Position numbers and translations under genes: made by a program. A stretch of DNA of 64,000 nucleotides from Flavobacteriia bacterium 40-80 (GTDB lineage Bacteria; Bacteroidota; Bacteroidia; Flavobacteriales_D; Crocinitomicaceae). Below are positions 28,362 to 39,258 of the stretch, piece by piece (positions within the stretch are counted from its first letter, which is position 1; each line of letters opens with the position of its first letter). Below the pieces are notes generated by a model. The model was not told the origin of the DNA. It saw only the letters and a list, made by a program, of their open reading frames with translations, and searched no databases. The DNA is taken from contig MKVF01000006.1 of NCBI GenBank assembly GCA_001899145.1, positions 62,001-126,000 on the forward strand, read 5' to 3'.

Positions 28362-29354
28362 ATGGACAGTCAAAATAAGCGATTTGAATTTGTACCGTTT
28401 ACTACACAGGTACTTCAAAGAAAAGTTTTCCCCAGAGAAGGAGAAATAAAGCTGGGAGAACGGTTAAAAGCTCTGGACAATCACGCAGGATCACGTTATT
28501 ACCTGATCGGTATAAATGAAGATATCGGTCCGCAGGCGAATCATGGAAAATCGGGTAGCCTCGGAGCTTTTGATTCTTTTCTGGATTATTTCCTGAACAT
28601 TCAGTCCAATGAGCATTTAGCAGGAGATAATATTTGCGTGCTGGGCCAGGTAAACCAGATGTACAGCCATGCTGATGTGGAAGCTTCCCGGTTAATGGTT
28701 GAGGAACTGGATAATTTTGTTTTACAGATACTAAATGAATATCTACCGGAGGACGCGGTTCCGATTGTGATCGGTGGCGGGCATAATAATGCGTATCCGC
28801 TTATAAAATGGTCTTTTCAGAAGCTATCACATCCGATAAATGTTATCAATATTGATCCACATGCGGATTTGCGCCCTCTGGAAGGAAGACACAGCGGTAA
28901 TCCGTTTTCATATGCAATAAGCGAGGGGATGCTGAACAAATACCATGTAATGGGATTGCATCAGTCTTATAATTCACAATATATTCTGGATGAGCTGAGA
29001 ACAAAGGAATGTGTTTATTCTTTTTTTGAAGATTATGTGAGAGGAGAGAGTTTTTCCAAAGATCTGGAACGTTTTTTTGAGTCAGTGAGCCAGAGAGAAT
29101 ACGGAATTGATCTGGATCTGGATGCTATTGAAAATATGCCGACAAGTGCGATTACGCCCAGCGGTATTTCCATTCAGCAGGCAAGAAAGTATATTTGTAA
29201 GATGGGGAACAGCCCAAAAGTTCAGTACTTCCATCTGCCGGAAGCAGCTCCCGTAGCTGTTGACAAATTGAAATACCTGGTAGGGAAGACGCTCAGTTAC
29301 TTTGTTTCTGACTTTATTAAAATGAATATGCAGGCGGTTAATCACAAGAAATGA
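28362..29354 (+). CDS. Arginase-family hydrolase, formimidoylglutamase-like
   Basis: Ureohydrolase-fold enzyme, likely cleaving formiminoglutamate in histidine breakdown; agmatinase or arginase activity is not excluded. The metal ligands of the family are visible: His in GGGHNNAYP (about residue 140), Asp-His-Asp in NIDPHADLR (about 165) and the Asp pair in GIDLDLDAIE (about 250). Length 330 is typical. The gene overlaps the following patatin gene by four bases (ATGA), so the two are translationally coupled. No other histidine-utilisation gene is in the window, so the pathway assignment is family knowledge only. Confidence 0.88.
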   Translation: MDSQNKRFEFVPFTTQVLQRKVFPREGEIKLGERLKALDNHAGSRYYLIGINEDIGPQANHGKSGSLGAFDSFLDYFLNIQSNEHLAGDNICVLGQVNQMYSHADVEASRLMVEELDNFVLQILNEYLPEDAVPIVIGGGHNNAYPLIKWSFQKLSHPINVINIDPHADLRPLEGRHSGNPFSYAISEGMLNKYHVMGLHQSYNSQYILDELRTKECVYSFFEDYVRGESFSKDLERFFESVSQREYGIDLDLDAIENMPTSAITPSGISIQQARKYICKMGNSPKVQYFHLPEAAPVAVDKLKYLVGKTLSYFVSDFIKMNMQAVNHKK

Positions 29355-31585
29355 TTATTTTAAGGAAGACGCGTAAATTTTTAGAATGTTTTTTCCCTTT
29401 GAGATTGCTGCTGGCACATCTCAAATACAATTTAATCACCTGTATTTACTGGGTGATCTTGTTTGGGATTGTAGCAGATAAATTTGCGACGGATTACGGA
29501 GTTCCTTATTTATTTCTTTCTCCGGAATATAACGGCGCGGTTAGCTGGCTGTCATTTTTATTCATTGGTTTTGCCGTAGGAGGCTTTTCCATTGCTTATA
29601 ACATTTACAGTTATATGATCATGGGAAAAGTATTTCCCTTTATATCAACTTTGTCAAAACCGTTTTATAAATTTTGTATCAATAATGCTGTTTTACCCGT
29701 TTCATTCTGCATTTTTTACCTGATCCGTGCTTCAAAATTCCAGCTGGAAGAAGAAATGGCATCGGGCATTGATGTATTTGTATTTAACCTGTCTTTTATC
29801 GCCGGCTTTCTTCTGTTTGTGCTATTATCATTTTTGTACTTTTTCCCTACCAGCAAGGATGTTTTCAAGCTTTCAGGAGATACTTACGCTGATCTGGAGG
29901 AAGAACCTGTAAGCTCGTTTTTTCACAAACAGGAAGATTGGACCAAGATCCGGAAGTACAAACAGAAAACCTACATTTATCTCCAGTCATTTTCCTCACT
30001 TAAATTAAGCCGGCCGATTCAGCATTATGACAAAATGTTGCTGGAGAAAGTTTTTTCACAGAATTATATCAATGCGACCTTATTCGAAATAGCTACGCTT
30101 ATCGCTTTCTTTGGGCTTGGCCTCTTTAAAGAAATTTCATTTTTACAGCTGCCCGCCGGGATGAGTATTATCATGCTGCTGACAGTTATTTTAATGTTGT
30201 TTTCCGTCTTCTCTTCCTGGTTCCGGAAATGGACTTATCCGTTCCTTATCATTCTGTTGGTCTGCTTAAACTTTTTATCTAAGAATACGGCATTATTTCG
30301 TTATAATACTTATGCTTACGGATTGAGTTACCAGGTTAAGAAACACAAAAATTATTCCTGGAAAACTATCCAGAAAACAGCGGATGACTCTTTGCTGAAT
30401 CTGAAAACCATAGAGAATGCAAAATTGATTTTATCTAACTGGAAACAATGTACTCAGGTTGAAAAGCCGAAGCTGATCATAGTAATGACTTCCGGCGGCG
30501 GATTGAGAAGCTCTTTGTGGACATTTGAAGTTTTGAATTACCTGGACAGCATTTCAGGACGTAAGTTTAATGATCATTTACACATGATTACCGGAGCTTC
30601 CGGAGGAATGATCGGAGCAGCATATTACCGGTCCCTGCTGCTGGAAGAAAGCCTGAAAACCAATTTTAAGTGGGATACACAAAAATTCAGAGAGAATATT
30701 TCGTCGGATTTACTGAACAATCTGTCATTATCAGCTTCTGTAAACGATTTATTTTTACGTCTGGCAAAATTTGAATATAAAGGAAAGCTATATTCAAAAG
30801 ACAGAGGTTATGCTTTTGAGCATCAATTACATAAAAATACGGGTAACATCTTGGAACATCCGCTTTCTTATTTTGCCCCGTATGAAAAAACAGCAACCAT
30901 ACCGTTGATGATCTTTTCTCCGACTATTGTAAATGATGGCAGAAGACTGATAATCAGTTCTCAGTCTTTGAATTTCATGAGCCATGCAACAGGTGAGGAC
31001 CGGCTGACAAGATCTTATGAGAATATTGATATCCATTCTTTTTTTAAAGGAAATAATGCCGGACAGCTGCGGTTCAGCAGCGTGTTGAGAATGAGCGCAA
31101 CCTTTCCGTATATCCTTCCGATGACAAGCTTACCGACTTATCCCGAGGTGGATGTGATGGATGCCGGGATCAGGGATAATTACGGAGGAAAAGTAACATT
31201 AGAGTACTTATATGAATTAAAAGACTGGATAAAGGAAAATACCAGTGGCGTCATCATTGTGCAGATCCGCGACAAAAAGAAATTGCTTGTTGATGAACGA
31301 ATGGCACAAATTTCCCTTTTTGATAAATTGACCGTTCCTGCGACAACGATGATGAGAAACTTTACCAAAACGCAGGATTATGATATTGATGAAATGATGA
31401 AGTTTGCGTTGGGAAGCTTTGCTTTTCCGACAGATATTGTTACCTACAATCTTAAAGAAGCTGAAAATATGCGGATTTCCCTTTCATGGCACCTCACTAA
31501 AAATGAAAAGAAAACCATCAGGGAAGCGATTTACAGCAAGGATAATCAGGAAGAGTTCAGTCATTTCCTGAACCTGTTTAAGTAA
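29351..31585 (+). CDS. Polytopic membrane protein with C-terminal patatin-like phospholipase domain
   Basis: Predicted membrane-bound lipid hydrolase. About seven hydrophobic helices fill residues 27-310 (for example near 28-46, 66-90, 108-126, 143-165, 240-258, 264-285, 292-308). The patatin domain follows: oxyanion-hole motif SGGGLRSS (about 378), nucleophile elbow GASGG with Ser417, and the Asp604 of DAG (in place of the usual DGG). Standard bacterial patatins are about 300 residues and soluble or secreted, so the membrane half is a large addition. Coupled by ATGA overlap to the ureohydrolase. Lipid substrate unknown. Confidence 0.88.
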   Translation: MIILRKTRKFLECFFPLRLLLAHLKYNLITCIYWVILFGIVADKFATDYGVPYLFLSPEYNGAVSWLSFLFIGFAVGGFSIAYNIYSYMIMGKVFPFISTLSKPFYKFCINNAVLPVSFCIFYLIRASKFQLEEEMASGIDVFVFNLSFIAGFLLFVLLSFLYFFPTSKDVFKLSGDTYADLEEEPVSSFFHKQEDWTKIRKYKQKTYIYLQSFSSLKLSRPIQHYDKMLLEKVFSQNYINATLFEIATLIAFFGLGLFKEISFLQLPAGMSIIMLLTVILMLFSVFSSWFRKWTYPFLIILLVCLNFLSKNTALFRYNTYAYGLSYQVKKHKNYSWKTIQKTADDSLLNLKTIENAKLILSNWKQCTQVEKPKLIIVMTSGGGLRSSLWTFEVLNYLDSISGRKFNDHLHMITGASGGMIGAAYYRSLLLEESLKTNFKWDTQKFRENISSDLLNNLSLSASVNDLFLRLAKFEYKGKLYSKDRGYAFEHQLHKNTGNILEHPLSYFAPYEKTATIPLMIFSPTIVNDGRRLIISSQSLNFMSHATGEDRLTRSYENIDIHSFFKGNNAGQLRFSSVLRMSATFPYILPMTSLPTYPEVDVMDAGIRDNYGGKVTLEYLYELKDWIKENTSGVIIVQIRDKKKLLVDERMAQISLFDKLTVPATTMMRNFTKTQDYDIDEMMKFALGSFAFPTDIVTYNLKEAENMRISLSWHLTKNEKKTIREAIYSKDNQEEFSHFLNLFK

Positions 31586-31586
31586 A

Positions 31587-32510
31587 TCATTTTTTTACAC
31601 GTACTCCGATCACATTCGGTAACGGCCAGAATTCCCCGTTTGCATCTGTAGGATAAGTATTGGAAACGTAGCTACCTAATTTTTCAATACGGTGCTCTCC
31701 TATGTTAACATACAGGCTGGTTTGTGGTCCTCCTTCCATATAAACGGCATTGCGCAATCCCATGCTGACCATGAAATTGATCATGTAGTTCTGGCTGTAA
31801 GGGGAACGTGTAAAAATAAAATAAACCATTCCGTCTTTATCTTCCGCAACGATCAGCTGACTGCAATACTGAGCCCGCTTGTTCCAGCTCATCGGTCTGC
31901 CTTCCGCATCAATCATGCGTAAGCCTTGTGAAAAGCTGCTGTATTTAGAGCGGATAGTGCTCCATGGATGAAAAGTTAAATCGACCACATTAAAATTAGA
32001 AAGCCCTTCTTTTTTCGGATTTGCGCAAATCATCATGTTGTAGTTGGGGTAGAGCTGAGGATTATTGGCATGTTCAGCGTTATTGATGAGCAAGCCTTTA
32101 CTTTTGTAATAGTTCCGCAGATCATACATGCCGGCATTGATGACAATATTGTAATCAAATTTTTCGGCGTAATCCACTACACAAAGCAGTTCCCTGTTAT
32201 TTTGAGTGGCAGACTTAAATTCGAATTCCGCTACGGCAGGATCAATTTTTAAAATGCTGATTTTAGAATTGTTGACGATCGCTGAATCCGGAGCAGTTCG
32301 TTCTATATAGGAAATTCCTTTGGAAAGCTCGATCCATTTATTGTCATATCTGGTGTAAGAAGAGTTCTTGAACGGAGAGATAAGGGCTGTATCCTGAGGA
32401 ATGGCCAAACTGTCTGCCTGCTGCACGATATTTTCTTCTTCCACCTGAGAACATGCAGTAAACGAAAATGTTAAGGTCAATGTTCCGAAGAAAATCAGTT
32501 TTTTTACCAT
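31587..32510 (-). CDS. Phosphodiester glycosidase family lipoprotein (NAGPA/DUF2233)
   Basis: Exported lipoprotein with a phosphodiester glycosidase domain, the family that in animals uncovers mannose-6-phosphate and in bacteria acts on phosphodiester-linked sugars. Lipobox FTAC gives Cys20. The domain covers about residues 70-305 with the family features INAGMYDLRN (about 120), a middle core with SQGLRMI and VYFIFTRSPYSQ, and YMEGGPQTSLYV (about 260), which stands where the LDGG(G)S motif is usual. It starts 15 bases after the stop of the preceding membrane protein, so the two probably form an operon. Substrate is unknown; wall polymer or capsule is inference. Confidence 0.85.
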   Translation of the reverse strand: MVKKLIFFGTLTLTFSFTACSQVEEENIVQQADSLAIPQDTALISPFKNSSYTRYDNKWIELSKGISYIERTAPDSAIVNNSKISILKIDPAVAEFEFKSATQNNRELLCVVDYAEKFDYNIVINAGMYDLRNYYKSKGLLINNAEHANNPQLYPNYNMMICANPKKEGLSNFNVVDLTFHPWSTIRSKYSSFSQGLRMIDAEGRPMSWNKRAQYCSQLIVAEDKDGMVYFIFTRSPYSQNYMINFMVSMGLRNAVYMEGGPQTSLYVNIGEHRIEKLGSYVSNTYPTDANGEFWPLPNVIGVRVKK

Positions 32511-32525
32511 CTCTTTAGTTTTTTG

Positions 32526-33713
32526 CTAATAAACAAATTTATTATCAAATTTCTTACCATGAATCGGAAAAACGTTGGATAATTCACCCGAATAATAAAA
32601 TTCATAGGTTATCATTCCGAAGGTGTAACGTTTTCCGTGGACATCAATTCCCGAACCTCCGACCTTGGGATCTTTTTTCGGGACACTCTGCGGATAACCG
32701 ACATTAAATAACGTTGTCAGAATTTCCGGACGGTCATCAATCGGGAAGCCTGCACGCTGCCACTGCATTTTTATCTGTTTCACAAATAAAGCAGCATACA
32801 GATAAGAATAATAATGATTCCTGTAATCAACCAGGCGGTTCATTCGTATAGCGTCTTTTCCGCTCAAAGTATCCAGCTTGTCTCTCACGGCCGAGTAATC
32901 ACTTCCCGAATAAGTGCTGTCATCCTCTCCGGGATAAGTGATCAGCCTTTCGTATTCTTCTCCCAGATAATAAGGTGATGAAGCATCTTTCAGATAATAT
33001 TCGATTTTCTTCGCAGTATTCTCTTTGATTCCTGTTACTCCGTAGGAATACATTGATTCCACGGAAAGGATCTTCAACGGTCCGATCACCTTTTTGTAGG
33101 TCTCACGGTTAGAATTGAACAAACGGATCTGCTCTCCGACAAGACAAGCGACAATTAACCGGGATTCCACACCTGTGACTTTCGAAACGGAATCGATCAG
33201 GTGCTTGTCTTTGATAACCGCCTGCTTAAAATCTTCCCACTCGATATAATTTACCCAGTCAAAAGCATTTTTTTTACTGATCTTTTTATTTCCGTAGTCG
33301 ATGGATTTGCTTTTGTTGTAATGCCGTACTGCCCGGATATACGGATCATTTCGATCTAAAGTCAGCTCAATAACATCCAGCATTTTGTATAATTCAGTAA
33401 CATCAGCCTTCTTGTGGTACTGCGCAAGAATCGTATCTGCATTGACAGGATAATAATTATTCAGCAGTGTGATCCGGCGTAAGAAATCCATTTCTTTTCC
33501 TTTGGAAAGTTCAAATTCACGTTCTTTTCCTTTGTATTTCTCATTGATTTGTGCCAGATGTCGATTGTTGATATCTACTTCTCCTTTCTGATTGGTAAAT
33601 CCCAGCATAATGGCAAAGTAAGAAGCGCATAGGAAAAATCCGATTAACGCAAACAAAATAGTAATAGTGGTGATGGTGACCCTAACCCATCTTCTAGAGA
33701 AAAATGCTTTCAC
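32526..33713 (-). CDS. Hypothetical single-pass membrane protein with lysozyme-like features
   Basis: Unnamed protein, 395 residues from the GTG at 33713. A longer open frame starts at a TTG at 33767, but that codon lies inside the candidate promoter, and GTG gives a compact K-A-F-F-S-R-R-W start before the membrane helix. One transmembrane helix (about residues 10-34) then an extracytoplasmic part. Residues 170-375 resemble a lysozyme/lytic transglycosylase-like helical fold by my reading: TGVESRLIVACLVGEQIR with a candidate acid Glu, YGVTGIKENTAKKIE, RLVDYRNHYYSYLYAALFVKQ, RPEILTTLFNVG. The match is by pattern only. Followed by a phosphodiester glycosidase lipoprotein in the same operon. 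Confidence 0.7.
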   Translation of the reverse strand: MKAFFSRRWVRVTITTITILFALIGFFLCASYFAIMLGFTNQKGEVDINNRHLAQINEKYKGKEREFELSKGKEMDFLRRITLLNNYYPVNADTILAQYHKKADVTELYKMLDVIELTLDRNDPYIRAVRHYNKSKSIDYGNKKISKKNAFDWVNYIEWEDFKQAVIKDKHLIDSVSKVTGVESRLIVACLVGEQIRLFNSNRETYKKVIGPLKILSVESMYSYGVTGIKENTAKKIEYYLKDASSPYYLGEEYERLITYPGEDDSTYSGSDYSAVRDKLDTLSGKDAIRMNRLVDYRNHYYSYLYAALFVKQIKMQWQRAGFPIDDRPEILTTLFNVGYPQSVPKKDPKVGGSGIDVHGKRYTFGMITYEFYYSGELSNVFPIHGKKFDNKFVY

Positions 33714-33734: not shown

Positions 33735-33768
33735 CAAATTTATTGCAGTTTTCGATTGGGAATACAAA
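33735..33768 (-). promoter_or_regulatory. Candidate promoter of the lysozyme-like / phosphodiester glycosidase operon
   Basis: On the minus strand TTTG (33765-33768), a 22-base spacer, TAAATTTG (33735-33742). The GTG at 33713 is 21 bases downstream; the alternative TTG start would overlap the -33 box. Confidence 0.5.
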
Positions 33769-37048: not shown

Positions 37049-38131
37049 TCAAACTGTTATTTTCCTTATCAATTCAGCTAATTTCTCAATTTCTTCATCG
37101 CTGTTAAAGTTGTGAATACAGATTCTTAATCGTTCCTGACCTTCGGCAACAGTAGGGCTCATGATGGCTTTTACCGCAAATCCGTTTTCCTGTAAAAATG
37201 AGGCTGCTCTCTGCACATACTCATTTCCCGGAAGCAGGAGAATCTGAATAGGAGAATAGGGATCACTGATGAAGCTGAAACCTTTTAATTCTGCTCTGAA
37301 TAGTTTAATTTTTTCTTTAAGTGAATTTATTTTAATTTCTGATAAAGATTTATTTATACATTCTGTAATGTGATCGTATTGATAGGGTGGAAGCGCTGTA
37401 GTGTAAATAAAGGAGCGGGAAAAGTTCACCAGAAATGCTCTTACTTTTTCACTGCATAAAACGGTGGCACCGTGTGTTCCGAAAGCTTTCCCAAAAGTGA
37501 TCAGCCGGATAAAAATACGTTTACGGAGTGATGAGTCGAATGTCATCCCTTTCTGATTTTCGCCGTATATCCCTGCGCTGTGAGCTTCATCAACAATCAA
37601 CAGCGCATTGTATTGTTCACATAAATTGAGAATGGATTCGACCGGTGACAGATCTCCATCCATCGAATACAGCCCTTCAATTGCCACAAATACAGTTCCT
37701 TCAGCATTTTTCAGCCGTTTTTCAAGATCTTCTGTGTCGTTATGCCTAAACGAATAGCTTTTAGCAAAGCTCAGTCTTATTCCGTCACGGACAGAAGCAT
37801 GAATGTACTGATCGTAAAGAATAGTATCTCCTTTTTGCGGTAAAGAAGAAAAAATTCCCAGATTTGCATCATAACCGGAGTTATAAATCAGACAACTTTC
37901 TGACTGGAAGTGAGATTGTATGAATTTTTCACAATCAATGGCTTCTTTACTGTTTCCTGAAATGAGGCGTGAGCCGGTGCTGCCTGAAAGCCGGACTGTT
38001 TTTTCCGTGCTTTCTTTCGCTATCCCCAAATAATCGTTGGAATAAAAGTCCGTCAGCTCCGGAAATGAAAAAAGGGAGCGTAAACTCCCATTTTCTATTC
38101 TTTCATTTAATTTCTTTTCAAATGAATTCAT
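37049..38131 (-). CDS. bioF: 8-amino-7-oxononanoate synthase-like PLP enzyme
   Basis: PLP-dependent alpha-oxoamine synthase, assigned to biotin synthesis (pimeloyl thioester plus alanine to KAPA) chiefly because it follows bioB by 9 bases. Family blocks: TGSRLISGN (about residue 30), IVDEAHSAGIYG (about 180) and LITFGKAFGTHGA with the PLP Lys (about 210). At 360 residues it is slightly shorter than E. coli BioF, with a short N terminus (YSNDYLG near residue 30). Other members of this fold make serinolipids or sphingoid bases in Bacteroidota, but the operon favours BioF. Confidence 0.9.
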   Translation of the reverse strand: MNSFEKKLNERIENGSLRSLFSFPELTDFYSNDYLGIAKESTEKTVRLSGSTGSRLISGNSKEAIDCEKFIQSHFQSESCLIYNSGYDANLGIFSSLPQKGDTILYDQYIHASVRDGIRLSFAKSYSFRHNDTEDLEKRLKNAEGTVFVAIEGLYSMDGDLSPVESILNLCEQYNALLIVDEAHSAGIYGENQKGMTFDSSLRKRIFIRLITFGKAFGTHGATVLCSEKVRAFLVNFSRSFIYTTALPPYQYDHITECINKSLSEIKINSLKEKIKLFRAELKGFSFISDPYSPIQILLLPGNEYVQRAASFLQENGFAVKAIMSPTVAEGQERLRICIHNFNSDEEIEKLAELIRKITV

Positions 38132-38140
38132 ATTAAAATA

Positions 38141-39229
38141 TCATGAAACAGTTACTTTTCGCGGTGTAAAACCTCCTTTTCGTGCTTCTTCACGACGCAG
38201 TTCTTTCTCCGCTTCTTTACGTTTCTTCTCCTCAATGATCTGATCCGGCTGAGAAACCGGTTTTTCACCATCAGCAAATGGTTCTTTGGGAATTAACCCA
38301 AGAATATTAAACATTTCTTTATCCTCGTTGAACTCCGGGTTTGGAGTGGTCAGCAGCTTGTCTCCTGCGAAAACAGAGCTGGCTCCGGCCATGAAGCACA
38401 TTGCCTGTGCTTCCATGGACAATTTGGTTCGTCCTGCGGATAACCGTACAATTGACTGTGGAAACAAGATTCGTGTAGTGGCAATCATCCGGATCAGCTC
38501 CCATTGCTCGATCGGCTTTTGCTGCTCCATCGGTGTTCCTTCAACGGCAACCAGCGCATTGATAGGAATGGATTCCGGCGGCGTTTCCATGTTCATATAC
38601 GACATCAGCATGCCGATACGGTCTTCCACCGCTTCACCCATACCGATGATACCACCCGAACATACGGAAATACCTGCTTTCCGGGCATTATCAATTGTTT
38701 TTAAACGGTCTTCATATTCTCTTGTGGAAATAACATCACCGTAATATTCCGGAGACGTATCCAAATTATGGTTGTATGCGAATAAACCTGCATTTTTAAG
38801 ACGAACCGCCTGATCCTCATTCATCATTCCCAACGTACAACAGACTTCCATATCCATGTTGTTTACAGCTTGTACCATTTCAATAACGGTGTCGAAGTCG
38901 CGGTTATCTCTTACTTCCCTCCATGCCGCTCCCATACATAAACGGGAAGATCCGTTAGCTTTTGCATTCTTTGCCTGTTCAACAACATCTTCCACTGTCA
39001 TCAGCTTATGAGCATCCACATCAGTGTGATATCTTGCCGCCTGGGGGCAATAGCCGCAATCTTCAGGACACCCTCCGGTTTTGATGCTTATCAAAGATGA
39101 CATCTGAACTTCTCGTGGGTTATGGTATTGTCTGTGAATTGTAGCTGCCTGAAAAACAAGTTCTAATAATGGTTGATTATACAAATCAATCAGTTCCTGC
39201 TTTGTTTTATAATTGGGGTTTATCTTCAT
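38141..39229 (-). CDS. bioB: Biotin synthase
   Basis: Radical-SAM enzyme that inserts sulfur into dethiobiotin. The [4Fe-4S]/SAM motif CPEDCGYCPQ is at about residue 60. Later conserved blocks are CGGIIGMGE, INALVAVEGTP and RLSAGR, plus CFMAGA near the C-terminal cluster. The start is set at ATG 39229 (MKINPNYKTKQEL) because the only upstream start, a TTG at 39253, falls within the candidate -7 box. From that start the protein is 362 residues, longer than E. coli BioB because of a charged Lys/Glu/Arg tail. First gene of bioB-bioF; bioA and bioD are not in the window. Confidence 0.96.
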   Translation of the reverse strand: MKINPNYKTKQELIDLYNQPLLELVFQAATIHRQYHNPREVQMSSLISIKTGGCPEDCGYCPQAARYHTDVDAHKLMTVEDVVEQAKNAKANGSSRLCMGAAWREVRDNRDFDTVIEMVQAVNNMDMEVCCTLGMMNEDQAVRLKNAGLFAYNHNLDTSPEYYGDVISTREYEDRLKTIDNARKAGISVCSGGIIGMGEAVEDRIGMLMSYMNMETPPESIPINALVAVEGTPMEQQKPIEQWELIRMIATTRILFPQSIVRLSAGRTKLSMEAQAMCFMAGASSVFAGDKLLTTPNPEFNEDKEMFNILGLIPKEPFADGEKPVSQPDQIIEEKKRKEAEKELRREEARKGGFTPRKVTVS

Positions 39230-39250
39230 AAAAATGCCGTTTACGGGAAA

Positions 39251-39258
39251 CAAATATA
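39251..39258 (-). promoter_or_regulatory. Candidate -7 box of bioB-bioF
   Basis: On the minus strand TATATTTG matches TAnnTTTG, 22 bases upstream of the bioB ATG at 39229. No -33 box at usual spacing. No BirA-type palindrome recognised. Confidence 0.5.

Follow-up and report, generated by a model that had tools for sequence, protein, structure and literature searches.

Two minus-strand open reading frames sit exactly at positions 31587-33713 of the window, the 64,000-nucleotide stretch of Flavobacteriia bacterium 40-80 DNA analysed here, where the first-pass annotation had placed them. The question raised by this locus is what the two proteins are and whether they act on the same glycan. It appears somewhat probable that one protein of the pair is an enzyme of lytic-transglycosylase type anchored in the inner membrane and the other a phosphodiester glycosidase of the periplasm or outer membrane, both working on a common envelope glycan, a reading in which we infer the activity, substrate, order of action and location. 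It rests on computation: the predicted fold, an invariant Glu, a predicted membrane anchor, the NAGPA fold, co-inheritance and adjacency.

The arrangement of the genes was examined in the sequence (Table 1). The earlier suggestion of an operon with its own promoter held up, as the two genes lie 15 bp apart and an exact match to the Bacteroidota-type promoter TTG-N22-TAAATTTG, a pattern with only 19 occurrences in 128 kb of strand, is located 21 bp 5' of the GTG start at 33713. The match overlaps the TTG at 33767, a longer alternative start. The genes of relatives start with VKRFFKSKW or a similar sequence. The GTG start is therefore supported by the agreement of the N-termini of relatives and by the exact promoter match just 5' of it. 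A terminator was looked for 3' of the two-gene operon and none was found. The pair faces a divergent M20 peptidase gene, and the NAGPA gene ends 1 bp from a patatin-like gene in a tail-to-tail arrangement. The latter (29351-31585, plus strand) encodes a patatin-like phospholipase of 744 aa with a hydrophobic N-terminal part; it had no PADLOC match and was only weakly similar to the CBASS lipase model (E 2e-4). Adjoining bioF- and bioB-like genes, called from their appearance, occupy 37049-39253 on the minus strand.

Table 1. Features of the two-gene locus, in window coordinates.
Feature	Position	Strand	Description and basis
Transglycosylase-like membrane protein gene	32526..33713	-	395 aa, GTG start; ORF and N-termini of relatives
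NAGPA-type lipoprotein gene	31587..32510	-	307 aa; Pfam PF09992 E 1.9e-10; fold matches 3ohg Z 17.1, 6pku Z 15.9
Gap separating the two genes	32511..32525	-	15 bp
Bacteroidota-type promoter match	33735..33767	-	TTG-N22-TAAATTTG; exact pattern match
N-terminal membrane helix, residues 8-36	33606..33692	-	Predicted helix; hydropathy 2.48; net charge +4 before helix (N-in, C-out)
Helical linker region, residues 43-150	33264..33587	-	Predicted structure
Lysozyme/SLT-like domain, residues 151-383	32565..33263	-	VIA-align Z 11.0, 157 residues vs MltE; profile match to SLT-motif relatives
E194 codon, predicted catalytic Glu of GEQIR	33132..33134	-	Invariant 66/66; aligned with Glu of VERTLN
Motif II GVTGIK, residues 225-230 (SLT G-L-M-Q position)	33024..33041	-	Alignments, profile comparison
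Motif III FNVGY, residues 336-340 (SLT A-Y-N-A-G position)	32694..32708	-	Alignments, profile comparison
Lipobox Cys20 (FTAC) of NAGPA lipoprotein	32451..32453	-	Sequence

A single-pass membrane protein had been proposed for the first gene, and one membrane helix followed by a helical outer part was indeed predicted. Since the single hydrophobic segment is N-terminal and is preceded by positive charge, the remainder of the protein should be periplasmic. Its structure was predicted from an alignment of 33 relatives, giving a model with a pTM of 0.79. Foldseek returned no significant match to this model (best E 0.86); lytic transglycosylases and g-type lysozymes made up most of its top rows, all of them non-significant. 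VIA-align, which re-aligns only the structures ranked by Foldseek and is thus support for the fold and not an independent search, gave Z scores of 11.0 for MltE (157 residues), 10.8 for Tse3, 10.2 for Slt70, 10.1 for MltC and about 9 for goose-type lysozymes, with the first unrelated chain at 3.7. The best 45 rows were all of lysozyme-like fold, which places the predicted model in the lysozyme superfamily. As Foldseek alone was non-significant, the assignment rests on VIA-align and the motifs. The lysozyme-like pattern on which the first-pass annotation had staked its reading is therefore present in the predicted structure. A GH124 cellulase was found among the lower VIA-align rows, so the lysozyme-like fold can serve other glycans.

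The Glu of GEQIR, singled out earlier as a catalytic candidate, is conserved in all 66 distinct sequences, two short relatives among them, and H300, Y302, Y304 and N337 are further near-invariant polar residues. A phylum-wide profile search yielded secreted relatives of about 210 aa (E down to 1.9e-14) whose motifs are Glu, GFSQ and TLYSTG, the motif-II Gln being kept. When the family was compared with five of these relatives profile to profile (E 1e-19), GEQIRLFN paired with VERTLN, SYGVTGIKENTA with SSIGFSQVKMKTA and TLFNVGY with TLYSTGL, the same succession as that of the three motifs in SLT enzymes; E194 thereby pairs with the Glu of the secreted relatives. Profile comparison with the four SLT enzymes of this genome gave no match for the long family and, for the short relatives, only a weak one covering the stretch of motifs I and II (E 0.0025, probability 12%). 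The short secreted proteins (L127, L128, L129, L132 and L133) score above no Pfam cut-off, and as many as four matching places were seen in a single genome (G752).

The membrane protein resembles the SLT-type lytic transglycosylases MltE, Slt70, MltC and MltF in its predicted fold (Z 9.8-11 over about 150 residues), in the single Glu at the catalytic position and in the order of the three motifs. However, Pfam SLT (PF01464) does not recognise it, with no match in any of 33 members among rows listed to E 10, and in place of the SLT motifs E-S, G-L-M-Q and A-Y-N it has E-Q, G-V-T-G and F-N-V-G. Two of these departures, Gly228 at the position of the motif-II Gln and Gln instead of Ser after the Glu, are nearly constant in the family. 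Moreover, the N-terminal membrane helix is apparently uncleaved, and the stretch between motifs II and III is long. DUF1402 (PF07182) was matched by 4 of the 33 long relatives (best E 0.0016) and by 2 of the five short ones, T6SS_Tse3_cat (PF22115) by 4 of the five short relatives (best 0.0005) and SLT by one, all below the curated cut-offs. The window protein has no DUF1402 match, and it differs from these families in having a membrane anchor and a helical linker.

The transglycosylase-like protein is covered by no family in Pfam, NCBIfam, PHROGs or PADLOC, so these collections give no sign of a phage lysin or a defence protein; no match was found in phage or plasmid records. Matches to Pfam MATH, NCBIfam DeoR and NCBIfam PG1828 were dismissed as chance level. 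PDB sequence searches with single proteins and profiles returned nothing useful for either protein of the pair.

The second gene had been described as encoding a NAGPA-type lipoprotein, and the Pfam NAGPA match (41.6 bits against a gathering cut-off of 25) and the lipobox FTAC both agree. No other NAGPA gene was found in this genome. The model of the protein (pTM 0.72, mean pLDDT 70) matched 5h3k with a Z of 18.3, 3ohg (BACOVA_00430) with 17.1 and the vertebrate uncovering enzymes (6pku, 6pki) with about 15-16, while the next unrelated structure scored 4.9, giving the predicted model a DUF2233/uncovering-enzyme fold. Although the fold is shared, identity over the aligned structures is 12-14%, and the protein belongs to a separate subfamily that carries the signatures NAGMYDL and YMEGGPETSLY and is tied to the transglycosylase-like gene. 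Of 12 NAGPA proteins in an alignment, the window protein counted, 10 have a lipobox. To our knowledge, few natural substrates have been established for the widespread bacterial NAGPA proteins. The vertebrate uncovering enzyme is reported to split UDP-GlcNAc as well (PMC12024695), and a pyrophosphate-linked sugar therefore stays a possible substrate.

The association of the two genes was evaluated in 200 genomes of the host's family and in a second sample of 395 genomes of the class, with tests that account for shared ancestry to genus level only. The transglycosylase-like family is present in 114 and the NAGPA subfamily in 81 of the 200 genomes, and 80 of the 81 NAGPA-bearing genomes also have the transglycosylase-like family (Fisher 4e-27, on counts that are not phylogenetically independent). 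At genus level the overlap is 9/9 (p 4e-5). In the class sample, 16 genomes share both families, out of 18 and 19 carriers, and the core NAGPA subfamily gave 8/8 by genus (p 9e-13). Dependence runs one way: the transglycosylase-like protein is often present where NAGPA is absent, and the NAGPA subfamily almost never occurs alone. A side subfamily of NAGPA (L119, L120, L121 and L123) was also seen, three of its four members being in genomes of other families without a transglycosylase-like gene.

In the host's family, 45 of 81 NAGPA places are within 350 bp of a transglycosylase-like gene, and two further families within the class show the same two-gene order. The prediction that the pair would be neighbours in related genomes was thus confirmed, and extends to other families. 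In a tree, the transglycosylase-like sequences of both further families nest among those of the host's family, which suggests that the two-gene unit was transferred between families, although the joining fork is weakly supported (87/61). The genes around the pair vary from genome to genome; a screen of a selection of neighbouring genes revealed no third component common to most neighbourhoods.

In the proposed mechanism, one helix would hold the transglycosylase-like protein in the inner membrane, with its lytic-transglycosylase-type domain in the periplasm. E194 may be the acid/base residue for cleavage of a beta-1,4-linked amino-sugar glycan. The cell's own peptidoglycan is the most likely substrate, as this is what the structurally closest enzymes act on. 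The NAGPA protein, which most relatives are predicted to make as a lipoprotein and others as a plain secreted protein, would be a phosphodiester glycosidase. It would hydrolyse an alpha-linked sugar off a sugar-1-phosphate diester carried by that same glycan or by an attached polymer. The two would probably act in sequence, the transglycosylase-like protein being able to work alone and the NAGPA protein needing its partner. The lipoprotein and the membrane protein could nevertheless be separated by the outer membrane. The first-pass annotation had read the pair jointly as trimming a phosphodiester-linked wall polymer or capsule; its lysozyme/SLT-like fold and conserved pairing stand, whereas the polymer is something that we infer, and the neighbours are not polysaccharide genes. 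A more specific version, which we consider rather improbable, is the detachment of a phosphodiester- or pyrophosphate-linked glycan in a Gram-negative envelope. The NAGPA protein would free a secondary polymer from the muramic acid C6 phosphodiester, or nascent strands at their lipid-phosphate end, and the anchored transglycosylase-like protein would cut beside the inner membrane. If true, these Bacteroidota would have an undescribed phosphodiester-linked wall decoration or strand-release step.

One alternative is that the outer domain keeps a lysozyme fold but no longer catalyses, serving instead as a scaffold or a glycan-binding module by which the NAGPA protein is anchored or positioned on peptidoglycan. 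Motif II without its usual Gln (GVTG against GLMQ) and the Gln in place of Ser after the Glu would fit such a role. However, in a scaffold that has lost activity the catalytic residue normally disappears from some lineages, and here E194 is invariant and accompanied by the near-invariant His, Tyr and Asn residues, so this explanation is regarded as unlikely. It is also possible that the two proteins are merely co-inherited envelope proteins without a common substrate, given that 34 of the 114 carriers in the host's family sample have no NAGPA partner and that the pair is unlinked in some genomes. Against this, the gene order is held in unrelated contexts and in the two other families that nest in the tree, and the NAGPA subfamily is scarcely found without the transglycosylase-like family; simple co-inheritance is accordingly judged distinctly unlikely.

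Digestion of a foreign polymer, wall or capsule fragments from prey or dead cells, was considered as well. A surface NAGPA protein would strip GlcNAc-1-phosphate-linked wall polymers and the membrane protein would cut the imported fragments. Gram-positive wall polymers have a linkage unit similar to the bond that the uncovering enzyme splits, GlcNAc-alpha-1-P-6-sugar. Furthermore, NAGPA domains occur in predicted phage depolymerases (PMC9862828). However, the transglycosylase-like protein is predicted to be anchored in the inner membrane, two of the 12 NAGPA partners have no lipobox, and no polysaccharide-utilisation genes were present among the neighbours scanned, which makes foreign digestion rather unlikely.

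The action of both proteins on a common envelope glycan is thus the preferred reading. With the NAGPA subfamily almost confined to one transglycosylase-like family, the search for its substrate is narrowed to envelope glycan, and the pairing is a testable lead to what bacterial NAGPA enzymes act on. The lysozyme superfamily also gains a family without a Pfam name. The lysozyme-like fold and the NAGPA family are already known. Among the open-licence papers searched, none was found on DUF1402 or on a NAGPA-transglycosylase pair, and none that describes the unnamed anchored family with its altered motifs or how tightly it is paired with one NAGPA subfamily.

Paralogues that have no NAGPA gene beside them branch separately in the tree, and this genome has one of them (L013). 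This second, unpaired transglycosylase-like copy (G000:C30:24241-25365, 49% identity) is surrounded by purine synthesis, superoxide dismutase and ROK genes. In the relative G013, an unpaired copy (L081, 10321-11322) lies upstream of a type IX secretion gene (PorP/SprF), and the unpaired copy in L051 also has a homologue of that gene nearby.
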